From assembly GCF_000226295.1 (NCBI RefSeq), contig NC_016024.1:1161501-1225500 (forward strand): a DNA stretch of 64,000 nucleotides, in the 5' to 3' direction. Made by a program: the position numbers and the translations under genes. Below, in pieces: positions 40,746 to 49,731 of this stretch. The number at the start of each line of letters is the position of its first letter. Position 1 is the stretch's first letter. The stretch is from Chloracidobacterium thermophilum B. Lineage in GTDB: Bacteria; Acidobacteriota; Blastocatellia; Chloracidobacteriales; Chloracidobacteriaceae. The notes under the pieces were generated by a model. It searched no databases and had not been told where the DNA came from. It saw nothing but the letters and a program-made list of their open reading frames with translations.

Positions 40746-41081
40746 TTACAGCACGGTGACAGGACCGTGATCGTCACAGTGCCCATCGTGGACGTGATGC
40801 AGCCGCCCGTCCACGAGGTAATCCACATGGTCGCCGTGCGGAATGGCCTCATGCCCGCAGCCCGGACCGTGGACATGTGCGCACGCCGTGGGGTATGGCG
40901 CACATCCATCGGGATTCGTGCTGCTGACCGCAATACAGTGTTCGTCGTAGTGGTCGCCGTGCGGAGAGTGCAGGTGGCCATCGTGGAGGTAGTCCACGTG
41001 GCCATCGTGCTGGATGCGCGTATGCCCGCAGGCGGCGTCATGAGTGTGGGTGTGGTCGGGGTGGGTTGTGCAGCTCGTCAT
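40746..41081 (-). CDS. Histidine-rich metal-binding protein
   Basis: 111 aa with about 23 His and 7 Cys. Two internal repeats share the pattern HVDYLxDGxLHxxHxxHxDxH (at roughly residues 28-48 and 85-105). It has no signal peptide. The His/Cys/Asp density implies binding of zinc or a similar ion. It lies 59 bases downstream of an ArsR/SmtB regulator with a zinc site, so the two form a likely metal-responsive operon. Sequestration or delivery of the metal is inference. Confidence 0.75.
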   Translation of the reverse strand: MTSCTTHPDHTHTHDAACGHTRIQHDGHVDYLHDGHLHSPHGDHYDEHCIAVSSTNPDGCAPYPTACAHVHGPGCGHEAIPHGDHVDYLVDGRLHHVHDGHCDDHGPVTVL

Positions 41082-41140: not shown

Positions 41141-41491
41141 TTACGCATCATCGTGAATGATGTCGTGCCGCGCATGGGCCAGCCCCTGGTGGAACAGATG
41201 CCGGACGTGTTCATCTGCCAGGCGGTAGTAGGCGTGCTTGCCTTCGCGGCGAACGGAGACAATCCCCAGCGTACGCAGCAAACGGAGCTGGCTGGAAATC
41301 GCCGGCTGCGACATCCCCAGCGTCAGGCACATTTCGCCGACACACATTTCGCCGGCATCGAGCAGGGCGATGATTTTCACCCGGGTCGGATCGCCGAGCG
41401 CCTTGAAAATGTCGGCAACGCGCCAGGCCAGCGGGGCGGCGAGCACTTCGCGTTCGGTTGGTTGGTGCTGGTTGCTACAGGGAGAAGCCAT
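41141..41491 (-). CDS. ArsR/SmtB-family zinc-type metal-sensing repressor
   Basis: 116 aa winged-helix regulator. FKALGDPTRVKIIALLDAGEMCVGEMC leads into the recognition helix MSQPAISSQLRLLRTLGIV. The alpha-5 metal site known from SmtB/CzrA is readable as D93-x-H95-x10-H106-x2-H109, which points to zinc (or a similar ion) sensing. C50 and C55 lie near the alpha-3 region. Such repressors leave DNA when metal binds. The probable targets are its own promoter and the downstream His-rich gene. Confidence 0.88.
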   Translation of the reverse strand: MASPCSNQHQPTEREVLAAPLAWRVADIFKALGDPTRVKIIALLDAGEMCVGEMCLTLGMSQPAISSQLRLLRTLGIVSVRREGKHAYYRLADEHVRHLFHQGLAHARHDIIHDDA

Positions 41492-43939: not shown

Positions 43940-44902
43940 CTAACTGTGGCGCGCCAGGACGTAATCACAAACCTCGTCCAGTCGGGAAAAACTATGTGGA
44001 ATCGAAAGGCGGCTGACGCGAACCGCCGTGACCAGTTGGGTCAGGGTATCCAGAATGGCAACCCGCGCTTCCGGCAGGGGAAGCCAGTCGGGATAGATGT
44101 TGGGCAGGAGCTGCATTACAGCCTGCATCGGAGGGAGTTGCGTACTGCTGACCGGAGCCTCCGCCGGAACGACCTCCAGAAGGTACACGTCCGTAAGCTG
44201 TGCCGGCCGGTGTTGTTCATGGGTATCGAGAGGCAGGTAGCGTTTTTCCCAGTGTTTGGAAATACAGGGAAGGGCGTCAGGGCGGCCGTAAAGGGCCGTG
44301 ACAGAAGGGTCCCACAAGCGGATGGCGCGCGGCCCCAGATGGACCACAAAGCCATCCGTCTGCTGTTCAACAGCAGCGACATCCTCGGCGATAATCTCCG
44401 CGCCGCGCCGGAGCAGCGCCGCCGCAAGGGTGGATTTGCCGGTCCCGTTCGGTCCCACAAAGGCCACGGCTGAGGCACCTATGGCTACTGTGCTGGCGTG
44501 CAGACACACCCGCTGCTGAATCTGGAGAACAAAACCAAGGATGGGGCCGGTCAGGTAGGTACAGGTATCCTCAAACGTCTGCGGCGGTGACCAGAGCGCC
44601 GTGATACGGCGTTGAGGGTGGTCGTAGGTGAAAGCCGTGCCGACGTTATAGCAAAAGTGAAACAGACCGGTTTCCGGCTCGTGGTAGGCAACGAGTTCGG
44701 GGCCTTGCCTGGCGTCCACAATTTGCCCCTGATACCACGGTGCACACGCCGGGGGGCGTGGTGGCGTGGGATTTTCCTCAAAGGCGAGAAAGCCATCGGC
44801 GGTGTCTTCACCAAGGTGCACCGGCTGGAGAAAAGGAACCGGGCGGGTTGTCGTCAGTCGCCGTCCATAAACCACCTGCGCCAGTGCCATCCGGGGAGAC
44901 AC
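43940..44902 (-). CDS. HPr-kinase-like protein, probable lasso peptide tailoring kinase
   Basis: 320 aa. Walker A is GPNGTGKST at residues 150-158, preceded by RVCLHASTVAIG, the strand typical of HPr kinase/phosphorylase homologues; IIAEDVAAVE follows with the acidic catalytic region. Its GTG start lies directly after the stop of the precursor gene at 44903, implying translational coupling and membership in the lasso operon. HprK-like kinases of other lasso clusters (paeninodin type) phosphorylate a Ser near the C-terminus of the precursor. Here both precursors end in ...Ser-Arg. An ATG at 44890 is an alternative start. Confidence 0.75.
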   Translation of the reverse strand: MSPRMALAQVVYGRRLTTTRPVPFLQPVHLGEDTADGFLAFEENPTPPRPPACAPWYQGQIVDARQGPELVAYHEPETGLFHFCYNVGTAFTYDHPQRRITALWSPPQTFEDTCTYLTGPILGFVLQIQQRVCLHASTVAIGASAVAFVGPNGTGKSTLAAALLRRGAEIIAEDVAAVEQQTDGFVVHLGPRAIRLWDPSVTALYGRPDALPCISKHWEKRYLPLDTHEQHRPAQLTDVYLLEVVPAEAPVSSTQLPPMQAVMQLLPNIYPDWLPLPEARVAILDTLTQLVTAVRVSRLSIPHSFSRLDEVCDYVLARHS

Positions 44903-45088
44903 TCACCGTGAGAAACGGTTTGGGCGGGGGCCAATCCGGTCAGCCCGGGTTGAGCCAAAAGCGGCCCAAGTACATTCAACAAGTGACCCGCAATCGGCGA
45001 GCATCGGCGACTGGTATGCCTTTTTGGCAGACCGCCCGGCTTGTGAGGAGGTTGCCGGTTGTTTGTATGGCAATGATGGTCTTTTCAT
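44903..45088 (-). CDS. Lasso peptide precursor 1
   Basis: 61 aa, preceded by GGAAA eight bases before the ATG. The leader contains Y-Q-S-P-M-L-x3-G-S-L-x3-T, the recognition signature bound by B1/RRE proteins of lasso clusters, with Thr two residues before the cut. The predicted core is AAFGSTRADRIGPRPNRFSR. Ala1 and Asp9 could form the nine-residue macrolactam, leaving an 11-residue tail rich in Arg and Pro. The penultimate Ser is a candidate for phosphorylation by the adjacent kinase. The exact cut site is inferred from the Thr(-2) rule. Confidence 0.85.
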   Translation of the reverse strand: MKRPSLPYKQPATSSQAGRSAKKAYQSPMLADCGSLVECTWAAFGSTRADRIGPRPNRFSR

Positions 45089-45124: not shown

Positions 45125-45315
45125 GTAAAGCTGCAAGTCTTTGAACCGCTGTTATCTATGTCAAACTTGTACAGGCCTGGCAGGCCAGGAATCAACAAAA
45201 TCACTTTCCTGCCGCACACTTCACACGAGGGCACGCGTCAGGGCTTCGACATGTGTGAAACAGGCAGCGTGATGGTCTGTTTTCAGCAGGGAGTCAGTCC
45301 TAGAGGACCTAATCA
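45125..45315 (-). pseudogene. Decayed 3' fragment of a second lasso cyclase gene
   Basis: On the minus strand the frame reads LLKTDHHAACFTHVEALTRALV, stop, SVRQESDFVD..., which aligns with the C-terminus of the intact cyclase next door (LPSEARHYLSCFVNVEALPTPLVWDARHEAKSFVD): shared Cys-Phe, Val-Glu-Ala-Leu, Leu-Val, Phe-Val-Asp in order. The Trp codon after Leu-Val has become TGA and further stops follow. It lies about 40 bases upstream of precursor 1, the same spacing as between the intact cyclase and precursor 2. It is therefore a relic of a duplicated cyclase-precursor unit. The left boundary is approximate. Confidence 0.8.
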
Positions 45316-45572
45316 CTACCCATCAGCCCCAAATGAAAAGCAACCTTGCACCCAGTAGCACCGACCCGAGTCCCTTGCTTGGCTTTCTGTGGGTTGATCG
45401 AAGGTCAAAACGCCTGCTGATTGGAGGTGAAGCAGACTGGTCAGGAATTTTCTTGGGGGGCCTGAAAAGCTCTTGCCCGCGTTTTCCCTAACTGCTGCCT
45501 GCCAAAAGGTGGCATTGTCAAAGGTGCCAGCCTTGTTCGTACGCCCTGCACAAAGGCCATCCGTGAGTTTTT
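45316..45572 (-). other. Low-information segment between precursor 2 and the cyclase relic
   Basis: An 86-codon frame starting at a GTG at 45576, overlapping the precursor 2 stop, spans this stretch, but its product shows no lasso leader signature or recognisable fold. It may be a further eroded part of the duplicated cyclase. I see no other element here. Confidence 0.4.
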
Positions 45573-45752
45573 TCACCTTGAGGCATTACGCATTAAGATG
45601 CTGTCAGGAGTCCCACCGTTGCCTGAAGCTCGGGTAAAGTCAGTGAGTGAGCCGTAACCTGTAAAGGTTGGCGAGTGGTACGTCTTTTTGCCGGGCTGCT
45701 TGACTTGCGATAAAGAAGCTTGTTGTTCAATTGAGGGTAATGGCTGTTTCAT
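45573..45752 (-). CDS. Lasso peptide precursor 2 (short, easily missed)
   Basis: 59 aa, ATG at 45752 with GGAG about eight bases upstream, 45 bases after the cyclase stop. The leader ends with K-K-T-Y-H-S-P-T-F-x3-G-S-L-x3-T-R, the lasso RRE-binding signature with Thr at -2. The predicted core is ASGNGGTPDSILMRNASR: Ala1 and Asp9 give a nine-residue ring ending Thr-Pro-Asp, as in paeninodin, and the tail ends Ala-Ser-Arg, again with a penultimate Ser. The upstream sequence of this gene and of precursor 1 are clearly alike, supporting duplication. Confidence 0.88.
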   Translation of the reverse strand: MKQPLPSIEQQASLSQVKQPGKKTYHSPTFTGYGSLTDFTRASGNGGTPDSILMRNASR

Positions 45753-45797: not shown

Positions 45798-47627
45798 TTA
45801 CACAATCTTGGATTGCAGCCATTTATACAGACTCAACGGGCTGAGGTCAACAAAAGATTTGGCTTCGTGCCGTGCATCCCACACAAGAGGAGTTGGCAAG
45901 GCTTCGACGTTCACAAAACAAGACAGGTAGTGGCGAGCTTCCGATGGAAGTTGCGCCCAACTTGTGCCGTGCCGCCTGATGTAGCCGGTGACGGGAAACT
46001 GAGGAAGGGGAGCCTTGGCACGCCGGACAACAGCGCGTGGAAGCCGGTTTTTGAGCAGTTCCCGGAAAAGCCACTTGTCGAGGCAAAGGGGCACAGTCGG
46101 CGCTGCCAGGAAAAACTCGAGGATGCGCTGGTCAAGCAACGGGGAGCGGATTTCCACCAAAGTGCCGGTGAAAGCCATATCGCTGTATTCATGGTCATTA
46201 GCCAGGTGAACCCGATTTAGCACCCGTAGCATATGCCGCCGGTAGGGGTGCGGTGGTGGACTGGGTTGCATGCGCTCGAAATAGCCAGCCCGACGCAGGC
46301 GCGTCACAAAGTCTGTTGCCAGCCAGCGGGGGATTTCTGACCGGGTTGGGTGTTTTCGTCCAAGTATCCGCCCAAACTGACGCCGAAGTGAAAAGAAGCC
46401 ATTGCGGACGTCAGCTACAAAGTACGCCACAAGAGCCTCGCCCAAGCGGAGTAACTGCCGCCGGGCAACGAGATCGCGCAGGTAGGGTGCTGTTTCCTGA
46501 AGCATGACTTCATCGCCCCACTGCCCGGTCAGGACAATGCGGGCGTGGCTGCCCACCTGGCGGTAACTTTCCATGATGCCATTCCAGAAGGGTTCGTGAA
46601 CCGGCTCAGGTGGTGGGGGAACGCCGGCCGGGGGGGGCGCATACGGCTGCCAGTTGTCCTGCTCAACGAAGGTGATGGGAATACCGTGACCTTGGGCGGC
46701 CAGCCCGGCGAAATGCCGTTCGCGGTCGGGAATGAGTGTGTTGAAAACACAGGTAAAAGCGCGGAGGTCAGTCGTTAGGCAGGCGCGTCGCGCGGCGGCC
46801 GTCACCACGTTGGAATCCAGCCCGCCGCTGAGAAGAACAGATGCACGTGGTGCGCGCAGCCGGTCAGCTACAGCCTGTTCCAGAAGTGCCTGAAAATGCT
46901 CGACGTAATCCCTTGTGCGGGCATAGCGGAGACACCCATCGGTTGGCCAATCCCAGTAACGCCACTGCCGCCGTGCACCCCCTTCAAGGCACAGCGCCGT
47001 AGCCCGTGGCAGGCGGCGGATGGCGCGGTAAAACGTGCCGTCTTCGTCCAGCTTCATCCCTTCGATGAGAAAATCGGCAACGGCAAAGTCGTCCAAATCG
47101 GTTGGGATGGAGGTGGGAATCTGCGGGTGGGCGCAGATGGTCGCAAGGTCGCTGGAGGCAACAAACAGCCCCGGCTGATAGCTGTAATAGAGCGGCTTGA
47201 CGGCGAACGGGTCGCGCGCGCAGAACAGCCGTCGGCGACGGGCATCCCACAGGGCAAAGGCAAAGTCGCCCTGAAGGTAGTGCAGGCAATCCAACTCCCA
47301 CAGGTGGTACGCCTGCCAGAGCAGTCTGGCATCCGGCATATCTTGGTCGGCCTCCCCGCCAGCCGTCTGGATGGCACGGCAGAGTCCTTCGCGCGCATCC
47401 AGCCGGATGTCGGCGGCCAGCCACACCTGCCCATCAAAGGTCAGTGGCGGTGGGGTGCGCGTCAGGTCATCCACGTGGAGATGGGCATAGCCCAGCGCCA
47501 CGTGTGCCTCGTACCAGTGGGATTGACCGTCAGGCCCACGCCAGGCCAACCGCTGGAGCAAACGCGCGACCATCGGTGGCGCAACTGGCCGCCCGTCAGG
47601 GTGGAAGATGACAAAAAAGCTGCTCAC
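45798..47627 (-). CDS. Lasso cyclase (asparagine synthetase-like, protein C)
   Basis: 609 aa asparagine synthetase B homologue. It is expected to adenylate the core Asp9 side chain and close the ring onto Ala1 using ATP. The C-terminal synthetase half has the PP-loop SGGLDS at residues 267-272. The N-terminal glutaminase-like half begins MSSFFVIFHPDGR and lacks the nucleophilic Cys2 found in true glutamine-dependent enzymes, as in known lasso cyclases. It overlaps the B2 gene by four bases (ATGA), so B1-B2-C form a tightly coupled operon. Confidence 0.9.
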   Translation of the reverse strand: MSSFFVIFHPDGRPVAPPMVARLLQRLAWRGPDGQSHWYEAHVALGYAHLHVDDLTRTPPPLTFDGQVWLAADIRLDAREGLCRAIQTAGGEADQDMPDARLLWQAYHLWELDCLHYLQGDFAFALWDARRRRLFCARDPFAVKPLYYSYQPGLFVASSDLATICAHPQIPTSIPTDLDDFAVADFLIEGMKLDEDGTFYRAIRRLPRATALCLEGGARRQWRYWDWPTDGCLRYARTRDYVEHFQALLEQAVADRLRAPRASVLLSGGLDSNVVTAAARRACLTTDLRAFTCVFNTLIPDRERHFAGLAAQGHGIPITFVEQDNWQPYAPPPAGVPPPPEPVHEPFWNGIMESYRQVGSHARIVLTGQWGDEVMLQETAPYLRDLVARRQLLRLGEALVAYFVADVRNGFFSLRRQFGRILGRKHPTRSEIPRWLATDFVTRLRRAGYFERMQPSPPPHPYRRHMLRVLNRVHLANDHEYSDMAFTGTLVEIRSPLLDQRILEFFLAAPTVPLCLDKWLFRELLKNRLPRAVVRRAKAPLPQFPVTGYIRRHGTSWAQLPSEARHYLSCFVNVEALPTPLVWDARHEAKSFVDLSPLSLYKWLQSKIV

Positions 47628-48085
47628 AAGACGTTGAGAGGCGTATCAAAGACGGCGTAGCGCTGCCGTACGTCGGGAGATTCCATCACCGGCTGGCCGC
47701 ACCATTCCACCCAAGCGTGGGCCTCAAACGTCCGGGCGTCTTTTTCAACGCCCAGCCGGAGGTCACAGACGATGCCGCGTCGCGCCAGCAGGAACCACAG
47801 CACAAGCGCACGAATAAGGCAGGTTGGCGACCGGGGACAATACCGGGCCGCCCAAGCGACAAGAACACCTTGGTGATCCACCCAATCCGCCGGGCAGGTT
47901 GCGGATGACACCGGTGGCGGCTGACGGCCAACCATCCACCGCATCCACCGCAGGCAGGCGCGTACACCGACGAGGCGGCACAGTCCGGGCAAACCCAGCA
48001 ACAAAAGCCAGGCCGTTACCAGGTTCGCCCGGTCTTCCGATGGAAGGTGGCAGAAGAGGTACAGTCGGTACAGCCAACGTTTCAT
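47624..48085 (-). CDS. Lasso leader peptidase (B2, transglutaminase-like)
   Basis: 153 aa of the lasso peptide B2 / McjB C-terminal family. The cysteine protease core is visible: C89 in PTCLIRALVLWFLLARRG and H123 in FEAHAWVEWCGQPV, with an acidic residue expected shortly after. It should cut the precursor between the leader and Ala1. The four-base overlaps with both neighbours mark it as one operon. It has no RRE of its own; that function is in the separate B1 gene upstream. Confidence 0.88.
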   Translation of the reverse strand: MKRWLYRLYLFCHLPSEDRANLVTAWLLLLGLPGLCRLVGVRACLRWMRWMVGRQPPPVSSATCPADWVDHQGVLVAWAARYCPRSPTCLIRALVLWFLLARRGIVCDLRLGVEKDARTFEAHAWVEWCGQPVMESPDVRQRYAVFDTPLNVL

Positions 48086-48408
48086 GAGATTGGAGCTGCC
48101 GCTGGCGGCGAATCTGAAGAAACCGGGTCAGGCGGAACAATCTCGATGAGATTGGCTTGCTGAAGCTGCTCCAGCAGGGCATTGAAATCCTGCTGGAGCC
48201 GTTCCGGTTCGACTTCATATTCGTCCAGCAGAGCCGCCAAAGCGTCCTGCAACGTCGGGCAGCTCGTGGCCTGCCGCAGCATGCTGTAGGCCACACTGTC
48301 CAGACCGTAGTAATGCTCCGTGGTCAGATTGAGCAGGATGGCTTCATCCGCAACAGAGCGCACAATGACATGCTTGGGAATCAGGGCTCGGTTCATAAGA
48401 GAAAGCAT
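48082..48408 (-). CDS. PqqD-like RiPP recognition element (lasso B1)
   Basis: 108 aa. ILLNLTTEHYYGLDSVAYSMLRQATSCPTLQDALAALLDEYEVEPERLQQDFNALLEQLQQANLI, in order, has the PqqD-fold pattern (beta strands, a 'D..a..i...l' helix, then a three-helix bundle). Standalone proteins of this kind in lasso clusters bind the Y-x-x-P-x-L leader motif and hand the precursor to the B2 protease. It is the first gene of the operon. The last ~15 residues (VSSDSPPAAAPIS) are a flexible tail. Confidence 0.85.
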   Translation of the reverse strand: MLSLMNRALIPKHVIVRSVADEAILLNLTTEHYYGLDSVAYSMLRQATSCPTLQDALAALLDEYEVEPERLQQDFNALLEQLQQANLIEIVPPDPVSSDSPPAAAPIS

Positions 48409-48533: not shown

Positions 48534-48570
48534 CGGGTAACATTTTCACTCCGGGTTGAAACAACAACCA

Positions 48571-49731
48571 ATGTACTCTGATTATGCAGCCCTAACCTAT
48601 CACGCTTCACTGATTGCCGATGAGCGTCGGGTGCAACCCTTTCAGTCTGCCATCGAGTCTGTCGTACGCCCCGGCGATGTCGTTGCCGACGTTGGCTGCG
48701 GAACAGGGATTCTGACGCTTCTGGCATGCCGGGCCGGCGCCCGGCACACCTATGCCATTGATGAAGGCCCCATCATTGAACTTGCCAGGCTGATTATTGA
48801 GAAGAACGGTTACGCCGACCGCGTGACATTCATTGGTTGCCTGTCCACACGCGCCCGGCTGCCAGAGCCGGTGGATGTCATCGTCTCTGAGACGATAGGC
48901 AACTATGGCGCAGAGGAGCTTATTCTCCCGACGCTCCGGGATGCCTGTCGCCGCTGGCTGAAGCCAGGCGGAAAGCTCATTCCGCAGGCACTCGAACTGT
49001 ACTGCGCACCGATCACCTGGCCGGAAGCCAAGCCAGATTTGTCCGTCTGGCGCGAGCCGGTGTGTGGTTTTGATTTTTCGTCTGCGTTGTCCTTTGCCGT
49101 CAACCAGCAGTATACACGCCGGTTGAGTCCGCAGCACGTGCTGGCCGAAGGGCGCTGCTACTGCCGGGTTGACCTGACCCCCGCCGCGCTGGATGGTGAT
49201 GCCCTGCCCAAGGTAGCCGGGACGGCATCCTTTCGGGTGGCGCAGCCAGGGGTGATGCATGGCATCGGCGGGTGGTTCAAGGCGTGGCTTACGGAAGACA
49301 TCACGCTGACGAACAGCCCCCTTCTTGAGTCTCCAACCAGTTGGGGACACGTGTGTTTACCGATTGCCGAGCCGCTGCCGGTGGCCGTTGGGGATGAAGT
49401 CGAAGTGACGCTCCGGGCGGTTGGCGGCGGCGGTGTGTTGTGCTGGGACGTGACCTGGCGCAGTGTTGGGGGGGAATCCAAAACGTTCCGCCATTCGGAC
49501 TTCGAGGGCTGGCTGGCAACACCGGAACGCCTGCGTCCGCTGTCGCCCACGGCGGCGCCGGGGCTGGGAGTGGAAGGCAAAATGCAGCTTTTTCTGCTGA
49601 CAAAGCTCGACGCCGGCTGGACAGTTGAGCAGGTCGCCCGTGGGCTACGCGAAAGCTTTTCTTCCGAGTTTCCTACGGATGAGGATGCTCTGGTCTATGT
49701 GAAAAGGCAGGCGCTGAAGTTCGCTCGTTGA
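48571..49731 (+). CDS. PRMT-type SAM-dependent methyltransferase with PqqD-like C-terminal domain
   Basis: 386 aa from the ATG at 48571. SAM motif I is VADVGCGTG at residues 38-46 and the 'double-E' region of protein arginine methyltransferases is readable as SETIGNYGAEE at 106-116. The last ~47 residues (LLTKLDAGWTVEQVARGL then FPTDEDALVYVKRQ) resemble a PqqD fold. It is transcribed divergently from the lasso operon. The predicted cores hold five and two Arg. Modification of the peptides is an attractive but unproven role. A TTG at 48556 would add five residues. Confidence 0.7.
   Translation: MYSDYAALTYHASLIADERRVQPFQSAIESVVRPGDVVADVGCGTGILTLLACRAGARHTYAIDEGPIIELARLIIEKNGYADRVTFIGCLSTRARLPEPVDVIVSETIGNYGAEELILPTLRDACRRWLKPGGKLIPQALELYCAPITWPEAKPDLSVWREPVCGFDFSSALSFAVNQQYTRRLSPQHVLAEGRCYCRVDLTPAALDGDALPKVAGTASFRVAQPGVMHGIGGWFKAWLTEDITLTNSPLLESPTSWGHVCLPIAEPLPVAVGDEVEVTLRAVGGGGVLCWDVTWRSVGGESKTFRHSDFEGWLATPERLRPLSPTAAPGLGVEGKMQLFLLTKLDAGWTVEQVARGLRESFSSEFPTDEDALVYVKRQALKFAR

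Follow-up and report, generated by a model that had tools for sequence, protein, structure and literature searches.

Comparison with related genomes indicates that a short frame on the minus strand of the Chloracidobacterium thermophilum B genome is a genuine lasso-precursor gene, here called A1. We consider it very probable that A1 is functional and fast-diverging, that it arose by duplication, and that it shares a single set of maturation enzymes with a second precursor in tandem. The window, i.e., the whole stretch of DNA analysed here, comprises 64,000 nucleotides of a genome of 3,695,372 bases in two contigs. Within it, the genes follow one another on the same strand in the order B1-B2-C-A1-A2-K, and a methyltransferase gene (M) is oriented divergently to B1 (Table 1). 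A sequence-only reading of this DNA had proposed a 59-residue lasso precursor with a ribosome-binding site, following the cyclase stop by 45 bases, and it was exact to the base: the frame opens with ATG and closes with TGA, a GGAG lies 8 bases before the start, and the cyclase frame ends at 45798, which leaves 45 bases between its stop and the ATG of A1.

Table 1. Features of the lasso peptide locus and their positions in the window.
Feature	Position	Strand	Description and family evidence
HPr-kinase-like lasso kinase (K)	43940..44902	-	PF07475 (Hpr_kinase_C) 25.9 bits, under the cut-off of 33.3
Second lasso precursor A2	44903..45088	-	41-aa leader, 20-aa core AAFGSTRADRIGPRPNRFSR; Thr(-2), Ala1, Asp9; absent from the sequence-only reading
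Putative remnant of a duplicated cyclase 3' end	45167..45275	-	Between A1 and A2, upstream of A2; extent taken from the local alignment in G000
Lasso precursor A1	45573..45752	-	ATG to TGA, 59 aa = MKQPLPSIEQQASLSQVKQPGKKTYHSPTFTGYGSLTDFTR + ASGNGGTPDSILMRNASR; 41-aa leader, 18-aa core ASGNGGTPDSILMRNASR
Lasso cyclase (C), asparagine-synthase-like	45798..47627	-	PF00733 E 5.6e-28, above cut-off; NF033535 268.9 bits, under the cut-off of 525
Lasso B2 leader peptidase, transglutaminase-like	47624..48085	-	NF033537 lasso_biosyn_B2 80.4 bits, above the cut-off of 33; PF13471
B1 / RiPP recognition element, PqqD-like	48082..48408	-	PF05402 E 1.6e-14, above cut-off; NF033530 39.9 bits, under the cut-off of 70
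PRMT-family methyltransferase (M), possible tailoring enzyme	48556..49731	+	PRMT_C PF22528 33.2 bits, above the cut-off of 27

The set of genes that defines the lasso class, namely a B1/RiPP recognition element (RRE), a B2 peptidase and a cyclase, is found beside the precursor. The cyclase shares 36-37% identity with the cyclases of three other genomes of our dataset (G037, G016 and G022), and no viral relatives of the B2 protein were found. Lasso precursors are expected to combine an acidic residue at core position 7-9 with a permitted residue at position 1, and both A1 and A2 carry Ala1 and Asp9. Their leaders also contain the RRE-binding motif [Y/W]xxPx[LVIAFY], as given in PMC13381572, in the form of YHSPTF in A1 and YQSPML in A2. 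In A1, this motif belongs to a longer signature, Y-x-x-P-x-F-x3-G-S-L-x3-T, which the sequence-only reading had pointed out together with the Ala and the Asp of the core; all are present, with Thr at position -2, as expected of a lasso precursor, and Arg at position -1. The NCBIfam model NF033528 (lasso_cyano, named for cyanobacteria) aligns to A1 over positions 2-29 of its 35, yet the score of 21.9 bits (E 1.3e-4) is under the cut-off of 33, as is that of A2 (15.5 bits, E 0.013).

A maturation pathway can be proposed from this gene content. Judging from established lasso biosynthesis, B1 would bind the YxxPxF leader, K would phosphorylate the linear precursor on a hydroxyl residue, and B2 would cleave after Thr(-2)-Arg(-1). 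The cyclase would then link the amine of Ala1 to the side chain of Asp9, closing a ring of nine residues around a tail of equal length, and M may methylate Arg. For these predicted products, the calculated monoisotopic mass is 1784.859 for the A1 lasso ([M+2H]2+ 893.437, or 933.420 when phosphorylated) and 2213.168 for the A2 lasso (1107.591, or 1147.574 when phosphorylated), with 14.016 more for every methyl group that M might add; a product lacking the C-terminal Arg would have 1628.758 (A1) or 2057.067 (A2).

The presence of A1 in other organisms was investigated by a translated search in 39 genomes, its own (G000) included, which gave matches up to E 1 in 18 of them. A check by conservation had been suggested along with the precursor reading, and the closest relative, G004, bears the reading out: it has a homologue at the same position (E 6.8e-14), which retains the frame along with Thr(-2), Ala1 and Asp9. 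Weaker matches adjoin the cyclase in three congeners (G005, G006 and G002, E 4.8e-5 to 0.005), and their cores are of the A2 type. Outside the genus, weak matches lie beside the lasso cyclases of G022 (E 0.135) and G016 (E 0.98), and the remaining ones look like chance. Both precursors are present in G004, with the core ASGTGFRVDRALRTSRASR for A1 and AAFGITVRDRVGPPPNRLSR for A2, and in G005, G006 and G002 a single precursor separates the cyclase from the kinase, its core being ATSGGIRADRIGPAPNRVSR, AVGGVGRADRIGPRPNRISR and ASFGDGRVDRIGPRPNRASR, respectively. When the seven genomes of the genus were searched with A2, these five precursor-bearing genomes all gave matches with E values of at most 1e-10, and G001 and G003 gave only weak, unlinked ones. 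In the latter genome the cyclase is interrupted by a contig end and the end of the kinase lies on a separate contig; in G001 the kinase end alone was located. All seven Chloracidobacterium precursors that could be read, from five genomes, have Thr(-2), Ala1, Asp9 and a C-terminal Ser-Arg. Since three congeners carry a single precursor of the A2 type, A1 is dispensable in the genus.

This conservation also bears on the possibility that A1 lies in a non-coding spacer and is open merely by chance. Its 59 residues and its poor codon score could suggest as much: among 253 in-frame windows of similar size, cut from the very 34 frames used for training, A1 ranks at the 0.4th percentile, and 39% of 1265 wrong-frame windows equal or exceed it. 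Yet the frame and the motifs conserved in relatives already contradict such a reading, as does the position beside B1, B2, C and K. A pattern combining leader and core at fixed spacing, composed after both precursor frames were known, has only two matches in the six frames of the 64-kb window, A1 and A2. We therefore hold a chance origin to be extremely improbable, and return to A1 as a genuine precursor. For A2, the codon score lies at the 5.5th percentile of the same 253 in-frame windows. The low score of A1 makes it plausible that gene callers overlook it, and the earlier suggestion that standard gene calling could miss A1 thus appears plausible by this codon-usage proxy.

A frame of 86 residues starting with GTG (45316-45576, minus strand) overlaps the stop of A1 by four bases. 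It has no family match above cut-off, and, compared with nine open frames from the corresponding part of G004, it gave only matches at E 3, with no convincing counterpart; on these two grounds, we regard it as probably spurious. It surpasses A1 in codon score, so that a gene caller might choose this frame instead. Elsewhere in the window, a repetitive, His-rich protein of 111 residues (40746-41081, minus strand) is encoded beside an ArsR-type regulator (41141-41491). It has no Pfam match at E 1e-5 and is possibly involved in metal binding.

The second precursor, A2, has a core of the type ..DR[IV]GPxPNRxSR that is found across the genus. The gap between A1 and A2 resembles the final 180 nt of the cyclase gene, with alignment scores of 44 in G000 and 60 in G004. 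None of 1000 dinucleotide shuffles reached the score in either genome (maxima 42 and 43), and 25 other windows of the cyclase scored at most 29 in G000 and 28 in G004. This decayed cyclase 3' end, as we interpret the alignment, marks a tandem duplication. In G004, the starts of A1 and A2 with their ribosome-binding sites can still be aligned (93 of 136 bases, E 1e-10), and the paralogy is clear; in G000, the two genes align weakly at the DNA level (best piece E 0.013). We propose that the cyclase 3' end was duplicated together with the precursor, giving rise to A1, probably in an ancestor of the two closest species. The A1 core would have diverged after this duplication, and A2 would have retained the ancestral core type. 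Since the single precursors of G005, G006 and G002 have A2-type cores, the A2 core appears as the type of the genus, and A1 as a derived duplicate known in two species.

The comparison of G000 with G004 reveals how unevenly the locus has evolved. B1, B2, the first 1650 nt of the cyclase and the kinase are 94, 95, 93.5 and 97% identical, respectively, versus 84% for the 3'-terminal 180 nt of the cyclase, 71% for the A1 leader and 50% for the A1 core. The spacer between A1 and A2 is 58% identical in the half next to A1 and 84% identical in the half adjoining A2. Between 45808 and 45309, windows of 100 bases show a drop in identity from 0.88 to 0.53-0.69; those inside the kinase lie at 0.93-1.00. 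This island around A1 is the deepest dip, others including a segment of the cyclase (47608-47409, 78-79%) and the A2 core (86%).

The A1 slot might be seen as a recombination cassette, with an allele swapped between lineages in place of duplication followed by gradual change on the spot. Such a history concerns the origin of A1 and is compatible with its being functional. The sharpness of the island would fit, as would the synonymous divergence of the A1 leader (dS 0.77 versus 0.2 in the cyclase). However, no donor was found, and each of the two A1 leaders has its best match in the other (13 of 20 residues, versus 8-11 of 20 to any other leader). A similar island would be expected from change in place, whether relaxed or diversifying, and the shallower dips elsewhere, such as the one in the cyclase, also speak against a cassette. 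We regard recombination as possible but somewhat unlikely.

A further alternative is that A1 is a decaying duplicate, with A2 alone being functional and the A1 frame staying open by chance in two species. Its low coding score, its divergence relative to the flanking genes (94-97%), which relaxed constraint would equally produce, and the fact that it was not seen in three congeners could all be explained in this way. Yet despite this divergence, both species keep the frame, the start, the ribosome-binding site, Thr(-2), Ala1, Asp9 and the Ser-Arg end of A1. The sole indel among its sense codons comprises 3 nt and is in frame, an additional one-base gap being placed by the aligner at the stop (TGA versus TAA). 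Moreover, nonsynonymous change in the A1 leader is lower than synonymous change (pN 0.234 versus pS 0.48, Fisher p 0.018), which is consistent with purifying selection on this part of the precursor. The core has undergone more nonsynonymous change than the leader (p 0.013). Constraint on the core itself has no significance (p 0.23, for one gap placement), as decay would also predict. On balance, we consider decay very unlikely, and a functional A1 the better explanation.

The core of A2 has also changed. Its leader differs by one nonsynonymous and two synonymous substitutions between the two species, and its core by nine and none, a ratio that departs from those of the cyclase (p 0.0004), the kinase (p 0.0015) and its own leader (p 0.045) and from neutrality (p 0.039). 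As for A1, these selection tests use small counts and a simple method, and adjacent changes are perhaps non-independent. Both cores thus appear to change fast, and it seems likely that leader and ring chemistry are constrained, with a rapidly changing sequence between them.

The sequence-only reading had also likened the predicted ring of A1, ending with Thr-Pro-Asp, to that of paeninodin, whose sequence we take to form a nine-residue Ala1-Asp9 ring. The nine-residue Ala1-Asp9 ring predicted for A1 stands, and paeninodin-type clusters of Paenibacillus share it along with the split B1/B2, the cyclase and the HPr-kinase-like gene. The Thr-Pro-Asp ring end, in contrast, is absent from the ring of G004 (ASGTGFRVD), and being unconserved even in the nearest relative, it makes for a superficial resemblance only. 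Furthermore, WxxP is nearly invariant in paeninodin-like leaders (PMC13381572), whereas A1 and A2 have YxxP, and the Ser recognised by the kinase of paeninodin is C-terminal (PMC8498205), whereas all seven Chloracidobacterium cores end with Ser-Arg. Leader and C-terminus together rule out a membership of A1 and A2 in the paeninodin family. Finally, the present locus has the PRMT-like gene in addition, and no transporter or other exporter among the ten neighbouring frames examined.

Another system for comparison is the BsfA/BsfK cluster of Bradymonas, which has in common with the present locus the split B1/B2, the cyclase and a divergent enzyme resembling HPr kinases, which carries the residue set H-G-G-G-K-S-D-D (PMC10368454). 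In BsfA, residue -2 is Ile and phosphorylation occurs on Ser3, whereas A1 and A2 have Thr(-2) and lack a Ser at core position 3, and the bsf cluster includes an ABC transporter, unlike the ten frames near A1.

A scan based on the cyclase alignment, with one genome per species (84,980 species), brought up further clusters, of which we analysed the best 80 loci. A kinase-like frame is present in at least 70 of these 80 and an M-like frame in at least 28, all of which also have the kinase; both counts are lower bounds, as many of the 80 loci end at contig ends, and the loci L064 and L106 match by construction, their sequences (G002 and G022) being part of the K and M profiles. In 20 of the 28 loci bearing M, it lies within 1 kb of K. 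The kinase-bearing clusters of other Acidobacteriota, Cyanobacteria and further groups share the leader pattern, which was found in 64 precursors from 61 of the best 80 loci. Their cores differ from those of Chloracidobacterium, as they often have Lys or Arg followed by Thr or Ser near the C-terminus and few Arg, and the double-E loop is mostly altered in their aligned M proteins. Among the same 64 precursors, the predicted first core residue is Thr in 12 (e.g., L085 and L113), Asn in 6 (e.g., L088, L097 and L105) and Lys in 3 (e.g., L070). Such first residues are unusual for lasso peptides, unless the cleavage site differs there.

The kinase itself matches the HPr kinases 1jb1/2qmh in a profile comparison (E 1.7e-8). 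For its structure model (pLDDT 92.8), the best Foldseek matches are PEP carboxykinases (E 1.2e-8), and HPrK/P appear from rank 31 (E 5.5e-7). The catalytic set of BsfK is present as H135, G150, G153, G155, K156, S157, E173 and D174. The Asp-Asp pair is thus Glu-Asp here, as it is in all five Chloracidobacterium kinases aligned. Six of these residues (H135, G150, G155, K156, S157 and D174) are invariant in an alignment of 31 sequences, composed of the window protein and the kinases of 30 of the 70 loci. The lasso kinases known so far modify a C-terminal Ser (PMC8498205) or, in the case of BsfK, Ser3, and the nearest acceptor in the seven Chloracidobacterium cores read is the Ser before the last Arg, which would most likely be the residue phosphorylated by K.

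In the precursors of the kinase loci of relatives (L065-L137, among the best 80 loci), we observed [KR][ST] within the last seven residues in 22 of 27 cases where K and M are both present, and in 20 of 36 where K occurs without M. Shuffling of the tails (2000 shuffles) gave means of 5.0 and 5.3 and maxima of 12 and 13, respectively. This excess suggests a possible kinase site in the relatives, unlike the known C-terminal Ser. As the Chloracidobacterium cores end with Ser-Arg and do not have the [KR][ST] motif, we treat the excess as a lead.

The methyltransferase M resembles PRMT6 both in a profile comparison (E 3.7e-62) and in its structure model (pLDDT 88.1; Foldseek E 7.9e-32, TMt 0.79). 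The double-E loop is a motif of PRMTs, and M combines the PRMT fold with such a loop, SETIGNYGAEE. M was found in 11 of the 39 genomes, and in each of the ten examined for linkage (all but G019) a copy lies at most about 4.2 kb from a lasso cyclase or kinase on the same contig; G016 and G022 each have an additional, unlinked match. In the M profile, G006 and G037 were entered twice, and some of the matches are weak (e.g., L112, E 5e-6).

The double-E loop seems to vary together with the Arg content of the cores. It reads SETIGNYG(A/P)EE in six Chloracidobacterium genomes (G000 and G002-G006), and the seven cores from five genomes of this genus contain 2-5 Arg and no Lys. The corresponding loop of G022, G034 and G037 is SD(L/I)RG.LP. 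We aligned the window protein with M from 22 of the 28 M-bearing loci, leaving out L090, L092, L100, L108, L112 and L114. In these 23 sequences the loop is intact solely in the window protein and in L064, both from Chloracidobacterium; L085 keeps only the first Glu, and L129 has a similar, shifted loop. Twenty of the other 21 loci gave cores (21 in total, none from L078), each with at most one Arg. Since this covariation amounts essentially to one evolutionary contrast, we take it as a lead for arginine methylation and not as proof. From its sequence and its place in these clusters, M is possibly a lasso tailoring enzyme of a kind not yet described. One could imagine that Chloracidobacterium makes Arg-methylated, phosphorylated lasso peptides, with M acting on Arg of the core and K on Ser of the Ser-Arg end, A1 exploring new cores, and the relatives with Lys-Thr tails having switched target as the loop altered; we consider this scenario, taken as a whole, unlikely.

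Lasso kinases and lasso clusters with several precursors are both already known, including clusters in which divergent cores share a common leader motif (PMC13381572). In the open literature, subscription papers lying outside the search, we found no paper joining Chloracidobacterium with "lasso peptide", nor "lasso peptide" with "PRMT". The terms "lasso peptide" and "arginine methyltransferase" co-occur in a work that, by its title, concerns a ribosome-targeting antimycobacterial agent, and the match obtained for precursor duplication in lasso clusters concerned graspetides.

With this locus, a cultivated thermophilic chlorophototroph from hot springs gains a testable lasso-peptide system. Further sequenced isolates exist, nine isolates and ten genomes being described in PMC8245765. 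It offers a natural example of a duplicated precursor whose core diverges, with the leader and the ring residues being retained. It also points to lasso clusters combining a kinase with a PRMT-like gene in records labelled Acidobacteria, Cyanobacteria, Deltaproteobacteria, Chloroflexi and others, the modifications of which can be read by mass spectrometry. A possible Arg-methylated phospho-lasso peptide would be the interesting part.
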